This document shows, in pieces, positions 35,598-52,385 of a DNA stretch of 64,000 bases. The position numbers were made by a program, and so were the translations under genes. The stretch is from the NCBI RefSeq assembly GCF_014773245.1, contig NZ_JACWMX010000005.1, positions 248,001 to 312,000 of the forward strand, given 5' to 3'. This DNA comes from Mucilaginibacter glaciei. Its GTDB lineage: Bacteria; Bacteroidota; Bacteroidia; Sphingobacteriales; Sphingobacteriaceae. Under the pieces are notes generated by a model. The model ran no database searches. It was not told where the DNA came from and worked only from the letters and a program-made list of their open reading frames with translations. Position 1 is the first letter of the stretch; the number at the start of each line of letters is the position of its first letter.

Positions 35598-35694
35598 CTT
35601 CGCTTGGGATTACTTCGTTCCTCGCAATGACGCGCTGAGATGCGTTGTTTTGTCCGTCCGTAACCTGAGCGGAATAATAGAACAAAGCGGACAA
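35598..35694. repeat. REP-like half unit and GTCCG repeat
   Basis: cttcgttcctcgcaatgac (35616-35634) matches the end of the 37-bp repeat. It is followed by ttgtccgtccg facing acaaagcggacaac (35650-35694). This is a further copy of the pair seen at 34993 and 37771. Confidence 0.65.
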
Positions 35695-39312: not shown

Positions 39313-39637
39313 ATTTCGCGTGAATTTAATGAAATTGTTCAACTTAGATTGTATAATACCACATGACAAGATTATTGGTATTCAACTTTTACAATAACAT
39401 TTAATTTACAAGAACACTACCCCCCCCCTTGTCCGTCCACCCCCTCCCCGAACATCCCGAACAAGGCGGACAAACCTACACAAACACCACATCACTAATA
39501 TCTGCACCGGTTTTGCGGTCATGTGTCAAGCTTGTAAAACACTTCTTTTCAGCAAAGTTCAAAGATGCTTCACTATCGTTCAGCATGACAAGATTTCCGC
39601 TGTGTCACCGATTGCTTTTTTATCAACCCCCCCCTAA
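39313..39637. other. Repeat-bearing gap
   Basis: No gene seen. Holds a 9-C run (39420-39428), a GTCCG module (39429-39472) and a half-unit of the 46-kb repeat in reverse: agatgcttcactatcgttca followed by gcatgaca (39563-39590). Confidence 0.7.
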
Positions 39638-43108: not shown

Positions 43109-44179
43109 ATGAAAAAAATAGGCATCTTATTCGGGCAGGAAAATTCATTCCCCCAGGCATTTGTTGATCGGATCAACGAGAAAGCTGAAAAAAACATCAG
43201 CGCAGAATTTGTACGCATCGACAAGATGATGCAGGGCGAGCCGTTGGGCTATTCTGTAATTGTCGACAGGATCTCGCAGGATGTTCCTTTTTACCGGGCA
43301 TCTTTAAAAAACGCAGCCATCACCGGCACGGCGGTTATCAACAACCCCTTTTGGTGGAGTGCCGACGAGAAATTCTTTAACAACGCATTAGCCGTTAAGC
43401 TGGGCGTACCGGTACCAAAAACAGCGTTACTGCCCTCTAAAGATCACCCGGACAGCACTACCGACAGGTCGTTCCGTAACCTGGCCTTCCCTTTAGATTG
43501 GGATGCGATATTTGATTACGTGGGCTTCCCGGCATACATGAAACCGTTTGACGGTGGCGGCTGGCGCGATGTTTATAAGATCAGTGATAAAGAAGACCTG
43601 TGGGCAAAATTTGCCGAAACCAAGCAACTGGTAATGCTACTGCAGGAAGAGATCATTTTTGACGATTACTTCCGCTGCTATTGCATTGGCGGCAAGCACG
43701 TGCGTATTATGCAATACGAGCCACGCAACCCACACCACCTGCGTTACGAGCATGGCAAAGCCCCGGCATCTAAAAAAATGCTGGATACCATCACCAAATA
43801 CGTTTTGCAGCTTAACCAATATTTAGGTTACGATTTTAACACGGTAGAATTTGCGGTACGCGATGGTATCCCTTACGCGATTGATTTCTGTAACCCTGCA
43901 CCAGATGCCGAAGTTACCAGCGTAGGCCAGGATAACTTTGAGTGGGTGGTGGAGACTGCTGCCAGCTACGCTATAGAACGCGCCAAAGCACAAAATGACG
44001 ATAAGGATAACCTAACCTGGGGCGAATATGTACGTACAGGCGTTAACGGAAAGCCTTTAGTGACCGCAGCAAAAGCAAGCAAAGCAGATGTAAGCGCAGG
44101 CACAGTAGACCACGCTATTACCGAAGAAGCTAAACCGAAGAAGAAAGCGGCTGCACCTAAAAAGGCGGCTAAGAAATAG
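43109..44179 (+). CDS. ATP-grasp ligase, RimK/glutathione-synthetase-like
   Basis: 356 residues. ATP-grasp blocks are visible: PAYMKPFDGGGWRDVYKI with the ATP-contact lysine (about 145-165), LLQEEIIFDDYFRCYCIGG, and the magnesium-binding VEFAVRDGIPYAIDFCNPAPDAE stretch. The C-terminal ~40 residues are Lys/Ala-rich and low complexity (EEAKPKKKAAAPKKAAKK). ATP-grasp enzymes join a carboxylate to an amine or thiol with ATP. Substrate unknown. It is followed by a GCS2-type ligase and a glutamine amidotransferase, which suggests a peptide-like product. Confidence 0.87.
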   Translation: MKKIGILFGQENSFPQAFVDRINEKAEKNISAEFVRIDKMMQGEPLGYSVIVDRISQDVPFYRASLKNAAITGTAVINNPFWWSADEKFFNNALAVKLGVPVPKTALLPSKDHPDSTTDRSFRNLAFPLDWDAIFDYVGFPAYMKPFDGGGWRDVYKISDKEDLWAKFAETKQLVMLLQEEIIFDDYFRCYCIGGKHVRIMQYEPRNPHHLRYEHGKAPASKKMLDTITKYVLQLNQYLGYDFNTVEFAVRDGIPYAIDFCNPAPDAEVTSVGQDNFEWVVETAASYAIERAKAQNDDKDNLTWGEYVRTGVNGKPLVTAAKASKADVSAGTVDHAITEEAKPKKKAAAPKKAAKK

Positions 44180-44274
44180 GAATTATAAAGCTGTCCGTAA
44201 TAGATTTTGTCCGCATTGTCCATTAGTATAACGGACGGACAAAGACGGCTGTAAAGAAATAGAAGCATAATAAC

Positions 44275-44377
44275 TGTCATTTCGAACGAGCAATAGCGAG
44301 GAGAAATCCTCTGTGAACAAAAGGTATAAACTATTACCTTAAAGAAGATTTCTCCTCGTACCTCGTTCGAAATGACA
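44275..44377. repeat. REPIN-like inverted repeat
   Basis: Left arm (44275-44311) begins tgtcatttcgaacgagcaat and the right arm (44345-44377) ends tcgttcgaaatgaca. Both share the TGTCATnnCGA...GAAATC layout of the 37-bp and 88-bp repeats. A GTCCG module precedes it (44191-44246). Confidence 0.85.
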
Positions 44378-44414
44378 TTTGTTTTTAAAGAACAATCCAA
44401 ACCCCTAACCAATT

Positions 44415-45512
44415 ATGAACGAGTTTACCTTAGGTGTTGAAGAAGAATTTATGGTGATAGACCCCGTTACGCGGGAGCTGAAATCGCATGAGCAAAAGAT
44501 TGTGGATAGCGCGCAAAAGATCCACGAAGACCAGGTAAAAGCCGAAATGCACCAGGCCGTGGTTGAGGTGGGTACCCACATTTGCCGCAATACCGATGAA
44601 GCCCGTAAAGAGGTGGGCAAGCTGCGCACTACCGTAGCCCAGCTTGCCGGCGATATTGGCCTGCGTATTGGTGCAGCGGGTACGCACCCTTTCTCGCACT
44701 GGCAGCACCAGCTGATCACCGATCACCCCAGGTATTTCGAGATAGTGGATGAGTTGCAGGAAGCTGCCCGCTCCAACCTCATCTTTGGGCTGCATGTGCA
44801 CGTAGGCATCCAGTCGCGGGATATGGCTATCCATATTGCCAACCAGGCGCGCTACTTTTTGCCGCACGTTTACGCGCTCAGCACCAACTCGCCGTTTTGG
44901 GAGGGCCGTAATACTGGTTACAAATCGTTCCGTACCAAAGTGTTCGACAAGTTCCCGCGTACGGGCATTCCCGATTATTTTGCCAGTATTGAAGATTACG
45001 ACAACTATGTAAAGCTGTTGGTGAAAACTAACTGTATAGATAATGCTAAAAAGATCTGGTGGGATCTGAGGGTGCATCCTTTCTTTGAAACCATCGAGTT
45101 CCGTGTATGCGATTGCCCGATGCTGGTTGATGAAACCATGACCTTTGTGGCCTTGTTTCAATGTATCTGTGCCAAGCTGTACAAATTGCGGTTGAGCAAT
45201 ATGAAGTTTATCACTTATAACAGGGCATTGATCAACGAGAACAAATGGCGGGCTGCCCGTTACGGTATTGACGGCAAGATGATCGACTTTGGTAAAGAGC
45301 TGGAAGTAAACACCCGTGCCCTGATCCTGGAACTGCTGGATTTTATTGATGATGTGGTTGACGACCTGGGCTGCCGTGACGACCTGCAGTACGTGCACAA
45401 GATACTCGAGAACGGTACCGGTGCCGACAGGCAGTTGGCTATTTACAACCAAAACAATAACTTTGAAGACGTTGTAGATTATATCACATCACAAACGTTA
45501 AAGGGGATATAG
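44415..45512 (+). CDS. Carboxylate-amine ligase of the YbdK/GCS2 family
   Basis: 365 residues. The family start FTLGVEEEFMVIDP is diagnostic for YbdK-type glutamate-cysteine-ligase-2 proteins, with the metal-binding EEE. Other blocks: AEMHQAVVEVGTHIC, FGLHVHVGI with two histidines, FWEGRNTGYKSFRTKVF, and IEFRVCDCPM. The reaction joins an amino group to a glutamate-like carboxylate using ATP; the partner is not known. It is the second ligase of the cluster, between the ATP-grasp gene and the amidotransferase. Confidence 0.93.
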   Translation: MNEFTLGVEEEFMVIDPVTRELKSHEQKIVDSAQKIHEDQVKAEMHQAVVEVGTHICRNTDEARKEVGKLRTTVAQLAGDIGLRIGAAGTHPFSHWQHQLITDHPRYFEIVDELQEAARSNLIFGLHVHVGIQSRDMAIHIANQARYFLPHVYALSTNSPFWEGRNTGYKSFRTKVFDKFPRTGIPDYFASIEDYDNYVKLLVKTNCIDNAKKIWWDLRVHPFFETIEFRVCDCPMLVDETMTFVALFQCICAKLYKLRLSNMKFITYNRALINENKWRAARYGIDGKMIDFGKELEVNTRALILELLDFIDDVVDDLGCRDDLQYVHKILENGTGADRQLAIYNQNNNFEDVVDYITSQTLKGI

Positions 45513-45567
45513 AGGGTAGCCAAGCCGTTCTTTACATAGGGGAGGCGAACCTAATTTAGATTGGATT

Positions 45568-46410
45568 ATGACAGATAAAACCGAAATTAAGATAGCCATA
45601 TTGGATTTGTATGATGGCGTTGCGAATGAGGGTATGCGTGGTTTCCGTGATATACTGGAACGCTATAAGGTTAAACACAACCTTAATTTAAGTTACCAGG
45701 TGTTTGATGTGCGCAAAAAGGCACAGGTACCGGGTTTGGAGTTTGATGCCTATATCTCGAGCGGCGGGCCGGGTAGTCCGTTGGAAAGTGAAGGCACCGA
45801 GTGGGAAAAGAAGTATTTCCAATTGATGACCAAACTGGAGGCGCACAACAAAAGTGAAGCTGCCAATAAAAAACACGTATTTTTTGTATGCCATTCGTTC
45901 CAATTGATGTGCCGCTGGTATGGTCTGGGTCAGATCGGGTTAAGGCGTTCGCCGTCATTCGGTATTCTCCCCGTACACATGACAGAGGCCGGCAAAAAAG
46001 AAGATGTTTTTGAAGGATTGGCCGAGCCGTTTTACACGGTAGATTCGCGCAGCTGGCAGGTTATCAACCCGGACATGGATCAGCTTGATCGGTTGGGAAT
46101 GACTTTACTGGCCTTAGAGAAAGAACGCCCCTATGTTGATCTGCCGCGCGCCATGATGGCTATCCGCTTTAGCGAATACTTTATCGCTACTCAATTCCAT
46201 CCCGAAGCAGATGCCATAGGTATGAAATTACTTTTAGAACGGGAAGACAAAAAACAGGAAGTGATAAATGAGCACGGCGAAGGCAAATACCGCGAAATGA
46301 TTGAGCGACTGGAAGACCCTGACAAGATTATGCACACGCAAAGTACCATGATCCCCAACTTTTTAGACGAAGCGATTTTGAAGTATCAGCGGGTGGAAGC
46401 AGGAGATTAA
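45568..46410 (+). CDS. Class-I glutamine amidotransferase-like protein
   Basis: 280 residues. The GATase triad is visible: C108 in FVCHSFQLMCRWYG, H and E near residue 210 in TQFHPEADAIG. KAQVPGLEFDAYISSGGPGSP is the class-I oxyanion-strand area. The C-terminal ~70 residues extend beyond the usual domain (RMIERLEDP, MIPNFLDEAIL). It may supply ammonia or hydrolyse a gamma-glutamyl bond. It comes 55 nt after the GCS2 gene, so it belongs to the same unit. Confidence 0.88.
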   Translation: MTDKTEIKIAILDLYDGVANEGMRGFRDILERYKVKHNLNLSYQVFDVRKKAQVPGLEFDAYISSGGPGSPLESEGTEWEKKYFQLMTKLEAHNKSEAANKKHVFFVCHSFQLMCRWYGLGQIGLRRSPSFGILPVHMTEAGKKEDVFEGLAEPFYTVDSRSWQVINPDMDQLDRLGMTLLALEKERPYVDLPRAMMAIRFSEYFIATQFHPEADAIGMKLLLEREDKKQEVINEHGEGKYREMIERLEDPDKIMHTQSTMIPNFLDEAILKYQRVEAGD

Positions 46411-46417
46411 GAAGTGT

Positions 46418-46507
46418 TCCATGCTGAGCGATAGCGAAGTATCTTCCAACAGGCCATGATAAAGCGGCGACTGAACGCGGAAAGATTCTTCGTGCCTCAG
46501 AATGAAA
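46418..46507 (+). repeat. 88-bp hairpin repeat, unit A
   Basis: Left arm catgctgagcgatagcgaag..., spacer aacaggcc...aacgc, right arm gattcttcgtgcctcagaat. First of a six-unit array around the GIY-YIG gene. Confidence 0.9.
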
Positions 46508-46520
46508 ACTAAACCTTACT

Positions 46521-46608
46521 TGTCATGCTGAGCGATAGCGAAGCATCTTCCAACAGGCGATAACTAAGCGGTTAAACGCGGAAAGATTCTTCGTGCCTCA
46601 GATTGACA
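46521..46608 (+). repeat. 88-bp hairpin repeat, unit B (reference copy)
   Basis: Left arm tgtcatgctgagcgatagcg at 46521, right arm gcctcagattgaca ending 46608. The arms pair over ~28 nt with a few mismatches and a ~33-nt spacer. Confidence 0.92.
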
Positions 46609-46622
46609 AACTAAAACTTACT

Positions 46623-46653
46623 TGTCATGTTGAGCGATAGAGAAGCATCTTCC
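46623..46653 (+). repeat. Left arm of a split repeat unit (unit C)
   Basis: tgtcatgttgagcgatagag then aagcatcttcc. This left arm is complete to the same base as the arms in units B and E, but instead of the spacer the GIY-YIG gene follows. Its partner tip gattgacaaa is found at 46989-46998, at the far end of that gene. Confidence 0.85.
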
Positions 46654-46674
46654 GATAAGTTAATGAAACGATAT

Positions 46675-47007
46675 ATGAAACAGCATAATTATTTTACATA
46701 TATCTTAACTAATTATAACCGTGAAGTTCTCTACACTGGTGTTACGAATGATCTTAATATTCGCTTGCAGCAGCATTACTTTGGAACAGGGCAAAACAAT
46801 AGTTTCACCGCAAAATATAAGTGCTATAATTTAGTGTGGTATGAAAGGCATCAATATGTTAATCATGCTATCGAACGCGAAAAGGAAATTAAAGGTTGGA
46901 TCAGGGCAAAAAAGATAACTTTAATAGAACAAGAGAATCCTAACTGGACATTTTTAAATGTTACAATAATGGATTGGCCGCCAACTGCGATTGACAAACC
47001 GGACTAA
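46675..47007 (+). CDS. GIY-YIG nuclease nested in a repeat unit
   Basis: 110 residues from the ATG at 46675 (MKQHNYFTYIL, the usual start of this family). Codons further upstream (46627, 46663) would translate the repeat arm itself and are less likely. GIY is TYI at 8-10 and YIG is YTG at 20-22; the conserved Arg is R30 (DLNIRLQQH) and the Glu E69 (AIEREKEIKGW), so the single-domain nuclease looks intact. There is no extra DNA-binding domain. The last residues (AIDKPD) are encoded by the right-arm tip gattgacaaaccggac. It is flanked by two repeats before and three after, and breaks the amidoligase cluster. Codon use is AT-richer than its neighbours. Mobility is inferred. Confidence 0.88.
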   Translation: MKQHNYFTYILTNYNREVLYTGVTNDLNIRLQQHYFGTGQNNSFTAKYKCYNLVWYERHQYVNHAIEREKEIKGWIRAKKITLIEQENPNWTFLNVTIMDWPPTAIDKPD

Positions 47008-47020
47008 GATTAAAACCTAT

Positions 47021-47112
47021 TTATCATGCTGAGCAATAGCGAAGTATCTTTAAACAGGCGATGATAAAGCGGCGATTGGACGCAGGAAGATTCTTCGTAA
47101 CTTAGAATAACA
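47021..47112 (+). repeat. 88-bp hairpin repeat, unit D
   Basis: ttatcatgctgagcaatagc at the left; right arm ends cttagaataaca. Most diverged of the five complete units, still in the same orientation. Confidence 0.85.
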
Positions 47113-47127
47113 AATTATAACCTTACT

Positions 47128-47215
47128 TGTCATACTGAGCGATAGCGAAGTATCTTCCAACAGGCGATAACAAAGCGGTTAAACGCGGAAAGATTCTTCG
47201 TGCCTCAGAATGACA
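47128..47215 (+). repeat. 88-bp hairpin repeat, unit E
   Basis: tgtcatactgagcgatagcg ... cctcagaatgaca. Nearly the same as unit B over its whole length. Confidence 0.92.
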
Positions 47216-47229
47216 AATTTGTTTTCTTT

Positions 47230-47319
47230 TCGTGCTGAGCGATAGCGAAGCATCTTCCAACAGGCGATGATAAAGCGGCGATTAAACGTGGAAAAGATTC
47301 TTCGTTCCTCAGAATGACA
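47230..47319 (+). repeat. 88-bp hairpin repeat, unit F
   Basis: tcgtgctgagcgatagcgaa ... cctcagaatgaca. Last unit of the array, 35 bp before the next gene. Confidence 0.88.
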
Positions 47320-47353
47320 AATTTAATATTGGAAGCCAAAATAACCTACCACC

Positions 47354-48550
47354 ATGAACCCATTAGCCAGAAAAACCCATAACGAAACCTTTTCAGCAGA
47401 AAAGTATGCTGATTTTTTGGTAGACCTTAACACCGGGCTAAAAGATCCCATAGAGTTCCGTATTGCAGAAACGCCCGTTTATTTAACTGACGATTTCAGG
47501 GATAAACTCATTAAGGCGGGTAATGAAATTGTAGCCACCATCCTTAAACCCGGTTTCAAAGAATTAACCGAACGCGCTATACCCGATCAATGGCGCGTAG
47601 CCAATGAGAACGATCACTCCCACTTTATCGCGTTAGATTTTGGCGTTTGTAAAGATGATGCAGGCAATGTCGTACCCAAGCTGATAGAAATGCAGGGTTT
47701 CCCGTCGTTATACGGGTTCCAGGTACACCTGGCAGAAAATTATCGGCATACCTTTAACATTCACGGTAACCAAACCATATTCTTCAACGGGTTAAGCAAA
47801 AGCGGATATCTGGATTTGCTTAAAAAAACCATCATCGGCCCTTACCAGCCGGATGAGGTGGTGCTGATGGACGTAGATGCGCCCCACCAAAAAACTGCCG
47901 TAGATTTTTACATTACAGAGGGTTACATCGGTACGCCGGTGGTGTCCCTTGCCGATCTGATACAGCAAGGCGACCAGTTATTTTACAAAATTGCCACAGG
48001 CGAATTGAAACGAATCCGCAGAATATATAACCGGTTGATATTTGATGAAATAGAAAGCGACCCGGAGATTTTTGAAAAGGTAGTGGATATTCGCCAGCCG
48101 CTTGATGTGGAGTGGATAGCCCACCCCAACTGGTTTTACCGCATCAGCAAATTTACCATGCCTTTTTTAAATGGCGAGTATATCCCTAAAACACAGTTCC
48201 TGCACGAGTTAACGGAGGTGCCCGAGGATTTGCAGAACTATGTGCTTAAGCCTTTATTTAGCTTTGCAGGCCAGGGTGTGATCATCGATATAATGGATGG
48301 CGATATCGAAAAGATCAAAGATCCGGAAAATTGGATCTTACAGGAAAAAGTTAATTACGAGCCTGTGCTTCAAGCGCCTGATGGTGGCGTTAAGGTAGAG
48401 ATACGGCTGTTGTACCTGTGGCCCGATGGTGACGCCGAACCAACCCTTGCCATTAACCTGGCGCGCTTAAGCCGTGGTAAAATGATAGGTGTGAGGTATA
48501 ATAAGAATTTTGATTGGGTGGGCGGTGCAGTGGCGTTCATGCATAAATAA
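47354..48550 (+). CDS. ATP-grasp-like protein of the amidoligase cluster
   Basis: 398 residues. No signal peptide. Blocks such as NENDHSHFIALDFGVCKD, PKLIEMQGFPSLYGFQ, then NYVLKPLFSFAGQGVIIDI with the candidate ATP-binding lysine, WILQEKVNYEPVL and the terminal VRYNKNFDWVGGAVAFM fit a divergent ATP-grasp protein. LKPLFSFAGQGV is the strongest point. It is separated from the amidotransferase by the repeat array, but lies on the same strand and fits the cluster's theme. Product unknown. Confidence 0.75.
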   Translation: MNPLARKTHNETFSAEKYADFLVDLNTGLKDPIEFRIAETPVYLTDDFRDKLIKAGNEIVATILKPGFKELTERAIPDQWRVANENDHSHFIALDFGVCKDDAGNVVPKLIEMQGFPSLYGFQVHLAENYRHTFNIHGNQTIFFNGLSKSGYLDLLKKTIIGPYQPDEVVLMDVDAPHQKTAVDFYITEGYIGTPVVSLADLIQQGDQLFYKIATGELKRIRRIYNRLIFDEIESDPEIFEKVVDIRQPLDVEWIAHPNWFYRISKFTMPFLNGEYIPKTQFLHELTEVPEDLQNYVLKPLFSFAGQGVIIDIMDGDIEKIKDPENWILQEKVNYEPVLQAPDGGVKVEIRLLYLWPDGDAEPTLAINLARLSRGKMIGVRYNKNFDWVGGAVAFMHK

Positions 48551-52273: not shown

Positions 52274-52302
52274 TAGGTAGATGTGCGGATAAAATCCTGC
52301 CC

Positions 52303-52385
52303 GTCTTTGCGAGGCACGAAGCAATCCCCGACAGAAAAGTCGGCGACAGGCATGATGGGGATTGCTTCACTACGTTCGCAATGAC
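52303..52385. repeat. REPIN-like hairpin downstream of the GT2 fusion
   Basis: tttgcgaggcacgaagcaat at the left and ggattgcttcactacgttcg ending caatgac at the right pair over about 25 nt. It contains a small nested hairpin (ccgac..gtcgg). Confidence 0.85.

Follow-up and report, generated by a model that had tools for sequence, protein, structure and literature searches.

Introduction

What is a gene for a small GIY-YIG nuclease doing within an array of hairpin repeats, and could its product be the enzyme by which such repeats are spread? The question is raised by positions 46417-47319 of the window (the whole stretch of 64,000 nucleotides analysed here, from the 4.6 Mb genome of Mucilaginibacter glaciei), where a unit of a repeat array is split by such a gene.

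Repeats of the CGTC REP superfamily are defined by a CGTC tag, often TGTC, by a complementary AT at the first two stem positions and by their arrangement in tag-outward dimers (PMC3733652). The superfamily includes dRS3 of Neisseria and RPE-4/RPE-6 of Rickettsia, and Bacteroidetes are among the phyla reported (PMC3733652). In 2013 Di Nocera et al. described these REPs as elements that 'apparently lack a dedicated transposase', no CGTC repeat having been found to adjoin Y1 or other transposase genes, a few fortuitous cases aside (PMC3733652). It should be emphasized that their search was made for transposase genes, and that their list of intragenic REPs omitted hypothetical ORFs under 120 aa (PMC3733652); this may be the reason why a GIY-YIG gene was missed.

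Results

Organization of the repeat array

The coordinates bear out the preliminary description in that five complete units of about 90 bp with inverted arms stand here in one orientation, together with a sixth that is split by the GIY-YIG gene. On the forward strand they comprise REP dimer unit 1 (46417-46507, arms TTCCATGCTGAGCG... / ...CTCAGAATGAAA), unit 2 (46521-46608, TGTCATGCTGAGCGATAGCGAAGCATCTTCC...GGAAAGATTCTTCGTGCCTCAGATTGACA), the left REP arm of the split, gene-bearing unit (46623-46653), the single-domain nuclease gene (46663-47007), the remnant tip of the right arm of this split unit (46989-46998), and units 4 (47022-47112), 5 (47128-47215, also among the top matches of the REP covariance model) and 6 (47228-47319). 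The array copies are 88-90 bp long, with identities of up to 96%. The right-arm tip, gattgacaaa, does encode the last residues of the nuclease (...AIDKPD), as had been claimed. It measures about 10 nt and agrees with the tip of unit 2 over about 11 nt; moreover, two relatives (L110 and L111) possess the complete two-armed version of the unit, with a full right arm 3' of the nuclease stop codon. Because of this match and of the complete arm in the relatives, the tip in the window can soundly be read as the rest of a deleted arm.

A stem detector requiring six perfect pairs recovered no stems in the window, probably since the stems contain mismatches, and complementarity tests were used in its place. 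Window-type repeats without the gene were found on five other contigs of the genome, including a four-unit array on contig C21; copy numbers per REP type in the genome were taken from sequence searches. Chance could be excluded as the origin of the array, since there are copies of up to 96% identity, dispersed genomic copies and a flank association with p about 1e-24 (see below).

Further single REP arms of the TGTC/CGTC type are present in the window at 35607-35632 (-), 39562-39590 (-) and 52302-52327 (+). The array breaks a run of genes (43109-48550) resembling an ATP-grasp gene, a glutamate-cysteine-ligase-like gene, a class-I glutamine amidotransferase and a second ATP-grasp-like gene, possibly a peptide or amide biosynthesis cluster, of which only the amidotransferase was confirmed. 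A Pfam search of the 398-aa ORF at 47354 gave no match.

Identity of the repeats

The arms are members of the known CGTC/TGTC-tagged REP superfamily, a point absent from the earlier reading. Every arm by itself forms a hairpin that bears a tag and has a covarying stem: the three bases beside the tag-proximal AT were complementary to the inner bases in 119 of 170 arms, compared with 23.5+/-4.2 when the inner halves were swapped between loci, twelve stem triplets being covered. GTCAT/ATGAC is invariant in 33 aligned dimers, and the outer base pair is either T-A or C-G (tag TGTC or CGTC). The unpaired end tag and the AT-opening stem of the superfamily are both found here, and tag-outward dimers with many intergenic copies are represented by the window array, by its dispersed copies and by the matches of the covariance model in 111 of 198 genomes.

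Properties of the nuclease

The ORF is open from 46627 to 47007 and matches PF01541 (Pfam, E=1.6e-13); judging from the extent of the domain and from the relatives, the true start more likely lies outside the left arm, at 46663 or 46675. The nuclease is a single-domain protein of 110-126 aa, in which Pfam recognized the GIY-YIG domain only and no added DNA-binding domain, and the closest named relatives of the window protein belong to Mucilaginibacter. The key positions Tyr24, Gly26, Arg34 and Glu73 are conserved (29 homologues), the AlphaFold model reached a pLDDT of 88.8, and in fold comparison UPF0213 (1zg2) was the nearest solved structure and Slx1 the next. Stand-alone domain, catalytic residues and fold all agree with membership in the Slx1-like family. 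Slx1 is a structure-specific nuclease on branched DNA, an activity that would suit a hairpin substrate. There is also weak similarity to group I intron endonucleases.

Specificity of the association

In order to quantify the association we scored inverted matches between the 400-nt flanks of a gene, with at least 15 as threshold. This score was reached in 52 of 78 GIY-YIG loci, against 5 of 135 other ORFs in the same loci (3.7%; Fisher p=3.7e-24), none of 28 HU genes and 0.7% of 286 offset intervals. The 78 loci come from named, mostly Bacteroidota genomes and were not sampled at random, being those relatives of the query that scored best; in about one third of them this test revealed no strong inverted flanks. 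Where both arms stand at most 150 nt away, the median unit measures 466 nt (359-614). When flanks were permuted among the copies of seven multi-copy genomes and the window's own, the observed sum was never reached in 10,000 trials (p about 1e-4). REPs are common in these genomes, and it could be supposed that, being dense in intergenic DNA, they adjoin any small gene; to such a coincidence we give practically no credence. It is refuted by the same-locus genes, by the HU genes, by the offset intervals and by the mispaired flanks, which own pairs surpassed.

A genome may hold several divergent nuclease copies, each accompanied by a repeat type of its own, and some copies are frame-broken. In many loci the gene is located between complete dimers and not inside one. 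At one locus (L037) a gene-less neighbour agrees almost completely with the gene-bearing unit over about the first 50 nt of the latter, a stretch that takes in subterminal sequence inside the arm; this is expected of internally deleted copies. At another (L247, G126:C86) three near-identical arm-GIY-arm units stand in tandem, which suggests amplification of the whole unit.

The genome of the window itself was searched with PF01541, and eight places were found. Two are long proteins without inverted flanks, UvrC and a fusion of Pol III epsilon and UvrC-like parts. The remaining six places hold single-domain genes, of which two are frame-broken, and every one of the six is bounded by inverted arms of a repeat type that is different for each, including TGTCCTTGCGAGCGATAGCGTGGCAATCT, TGTCATTTCGAACGAGCGATAGCGAGGAGAAATC and CGTCTTTGCGAGGTACGAAGCAATCC; in the 6x6 matrix of upstream against downstream flanks each own pair tops its row. 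The fusion (L026), in which a DNA polymerase III epsilon-like exonuclease is joined to a UvrC-like GIY-YIG domain (Cho-like), is a natural non-REP control.

With two Y1 transposase genes in the same genome, it is conceivable that Y1 (RAYT/TnpA-REP) transposases mobilise the repeats and that the GIY-YIG link is secondary. Both Y1 genes, however, carry untagged inverted repeats of their own that are unrelated to the GIY-YIG arms, and the survey of CGTC repeats cited above likewise speaks against Y1 partners. We hold the Y1 explanation to be very improbable in general, and have rejected Y1/RAYT as the partner in this genome. The two Y1 loci (L185 and L186) have different flanking repeat families, one of them CGCGAGTTTAGCGCAGCGTAACTCGTG; in one relative a Y1-type-like repeat (L109, about 1358-1500) fills the same intergenic site as the GIY-YIG array of the window.

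Distribution among genomes and phyla

Among 128 genomes with the gene, 88 were found to carry REPs; among 70 that lack it, the number was 23 (odds ratio 4.5, p=1.4e-6, Spearman 0.41). The preliminary description had named equal abundance in genomes without the nuclease as an observation that would refute the link; this is not what was found, although the dependence is not strict. The presence of REPs was judged by a covariance model of dimers with only 22 candidates scored per genome, and some REP types were missed: two genomes (G248 and G214) have the gene and no model match, yet tagged arms were found in them. Thirteen REP-bearing genomes in which the first search had not found the gene were searched again; 12 yielded only long UvrC/Cho-type domains, by which strict co-occurrence is rejected, and the thirteenth (G077) one single-domain match without obvious REP flanks. 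Genuine TGTC dimers were found (L237-L244) in five genomes (G069, G070, G112, G143, G181) in which no single-domain GIY-YIG gene was found; these may be relics of a lost gene or point to another mobiliser. REPs can thus be present, or at least be retained, where the gene is missing.

On the nuclease tree (133 proteins, stem type known for 90) the REP stem type changes 42 times, against 60.4+/-2.1 for shuffled labels. This fit is in part species relatedness, an effect of which the within-genome pairing test is free. A further explanation can be weighed here, namely that a free-standing, homing-type endonuclease invades REPs which owe their own spread to a different enzyme or to slippage during replication. 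It could draw on the similarity to group I intron endonucleases, weak as it is, on the REP-bearing genomes without the gene and on the many loci where the gene stands between complete dimers. Against it, the repeat type tracks both the phylogeny and the copy of the nuclease, REP presence correlates with the gene, and Pfam finds nothing but the GIY-YIG domain, with no added DNA-binding domain; we consider invasion of this kind quite unlikely.

Flanking repeats at GIY-YIG homologues elsewhere, the absence of which would have refuted the proposal, are present in several phyla. Outside Bacteroidota 12 of 16 loci, found by protein search of annotated plasmid-collection records (some of them chromosomes), lie clearly between CGTC/TGTC arms. 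REP-bounded GIY-YIG genes were seen in Azospirillum lipoferum, Sinorhizobium meliloti, Sphingobium, Neorhizobium, Rhizobium sp. CIAT894 and Shinella, as well as in Aeromonas caviae, Planktothrix agardhii and Neisseria gonorrhoeae, where the repeats are dRS3. This does not hold for a Rhizobium tumorigenes-type locus (two records), nor for Photobacterium, where the only REP lies downstream; in Sinorhizobium K101 the repeats are CCTC-tagged and differently arranged. On a Planktothrix plasmid (L168, 1995-2279) a REP-flanked GIY-YIG gene stands between an MmeI-type restriction gene and drmA of the DISARM defence system. The units of Azospirillum (L170) and Shinella (L181) both lie between sufB and sufC, the latter judged from its sequence only.

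Comparison of corresponding sites

Of 34 same-genus genomes that were searched and have the neighbouring gene, 5 (the window's own included) carry the nuclease gene at the site of the window, with 70-77% identity. Being common to five species at this identity, the gene is old at the site and no recent insertion. Of the remaining genomes, where readable, several have a dimer of another REP type and several have neither. It had also been asked whether the gene predates the repeats: arms flank it in all five species and nothing shows the gene to be older, but the order could not be polarised.

Both filled and empty sites, for which a comparison of strains had been proposed, were found in other genera, together with reduced ones. 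In A. lipoferum a REP-GIY-REP unit lies between sufB and sufC, and no such unit is found there in A. ramasamyi, A. oryzae or strain B510 (95-97% identity). The site between fnrL and a response regulator in Sphingobium is filled in TomMM7A, TomMM15 and TomTYG46, is occupied by a single REP palindrome only in TomTYG64 and TomTYG74, and contains neither unit nor palindrome in TomTYG72. The single palindrome looks like a junction at ACCCCGGG, which is common to both arms. In the alignments of filled and empty sites the unit is visible, with no clear target-site duplication and no demonstrated precise excision; the Azospirillum boundaries are blurred by intergenic divergence, and the direction is not polarised.

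These sites bear on the possibility that a housekeeping or domesticated, hairpin-processing enzyme manages the repeats, for instance by trimming cruciforms, and that the repeats are kept for regulation and not moved. Such a role would be in line with a fold nearest to UPF0213 and Slx1, structure-specific nucleases, and with the vertical inheritance of the gene in five species at the window site. Filled and empty sites, divergent copies with their own repeats, frame-broken copies and the tandem array, on the other hand, look like the dynamics of an element, and we regard the housekeeping role as unlikely, if worth keeping in mind.

Discussion

The best explanation of these results is an element of about 0.4-0.5 kb, consisting of the nuclease gene between two inverted TGTC-tagged hairpins, of which the scattered dimers are short derivatives or substrates. 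The locus of the window is probably a decayed copy of such a REP-GIY-REP element amid gene-less REP-dimer derivatives, the REPs and the unit being spread, as we infer, by the nuclease. With less assurance, we are slightly inclined to believe that one-domain GIY-YIG proteins mobilise CGTC/TGTC REPs across several phyla as autonomous elements of about 0.4-0.5 kb, and that these form a second, independently evolved system of enzyme and hairpin repeat beside RAYT/REPIN. We observed the arm-gene-arm architecture and its recurrence across phyla, the match of repeat type and copy, the covarying hairpins and the presence or absence of the unit. Enzymatic mobilisation of the repeats, including a putative structure-specific cleavage of hairpins by the nuclease, is inferred from these observations. 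Accordingly, the original proposal that the repeats are derivatives or substrates of a GIY-YIG element holds as to the association, which is supported by pairing, flanks and filled or empty sites, but its mobilisation part remains an inference. The GIY-YIG gene is a strong candidate for the enzyme spreading CGTC REPs.

As for a possible mechanism, the nuclease might recognise its own tagged hairpins during replication, either as single-strand hairpins or as cruciforms, and would nick at or near the tag; host replication or repair could then copy the segment with its hairpin ends to another place or join it there, and in this way full units as well as gene-less dimers would spread. GIY-YIG enzymes act by hydrolysis of DNA and, unlike HUH transposases, are not known to join the strands again, and for this reason a copy-in or homing-like route appears more likely than cut-and-paste.

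If this proposal is true, DNA is moved by a class of nuclease that is not known to power a bacterial transposon by itself, and a function is provided for a large set of genes whose only annotation is 'GIY-YIG nuclease family protein' or, erroneously, 'excinuclease ABC subunit C'. The dRS3 repeats of Neisseria and RPE-4/RPE-6 of Rickettsia have been reported without a dedicated enzyme, and a partner gene with a fold, an active site and cognate hairpins makes their spread testable. A search of the published literature gave no report linking GIY-YIG to REPs; preprints and most subscription papers lay outside it, and priority of this link cannot be claimed with certainty.

Several known systems can be compared with the proposed element. 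It shares with the CGTC superfamily the CGTC/TGTC tag, the AT-opening stem, the tag-outward dimers and the intergenic position, and differs in that a GIY-YIG gene is located between the repeats, where the 2013 paper reports no dedicated transposase gene. The Slx1-like family (UPF0213: 1zg2, 1ywl; PMC1564403) resembles it in the stand-alone GIY-YIG domain and provides the best match in sequence and fold. No association of this family with palindromic repeats was found in the searched passages of the survey of Dunin-Horkawicz et al. 2006 (PMC1564403), and the REP-linked proteins (FTxKY...LVYYE...NPxW) seem to form a subfamily of their own. GIY-YIG homing endonucleases and Penelope-like elements are alike in the selfish use of a GIY-YIG nuclease, but in our case there is no intron, no NUMOD domain and no reverse transcriptase, and the gene is REP-bounded and intergenic. 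MITEs and deleted insertion sequences offer a parallel in their short non-coding derivatives, which keep the ends and subterminal sequence of a gene-bearing unit as seen in L037; here, in contrast, neither a DDE transposase nor a demonstrated target-site duplication is present. A transposase with known strand-transfer chemistry is absent, the unit encoding the GIY-YIG nuclease alone. The comparison with REPIN/RAYT (TnpA-REP) reveals the same scattered, tagged pairs of inverted hairpins, a low-copy nuclease gene with cognate flanks and a repeat type that tracks the enzyme. RAYT, however, is an HUH tyrosine (Y1) transposase with a GTAG tag, whereas here a GIY-YIG nuclease goes with a TGTC/CGTC tag, and the two enzymes are unrelated; if the proposal is true, the REP-GIY-REP element would be the convergent counterpart of RAYT/REPIN.
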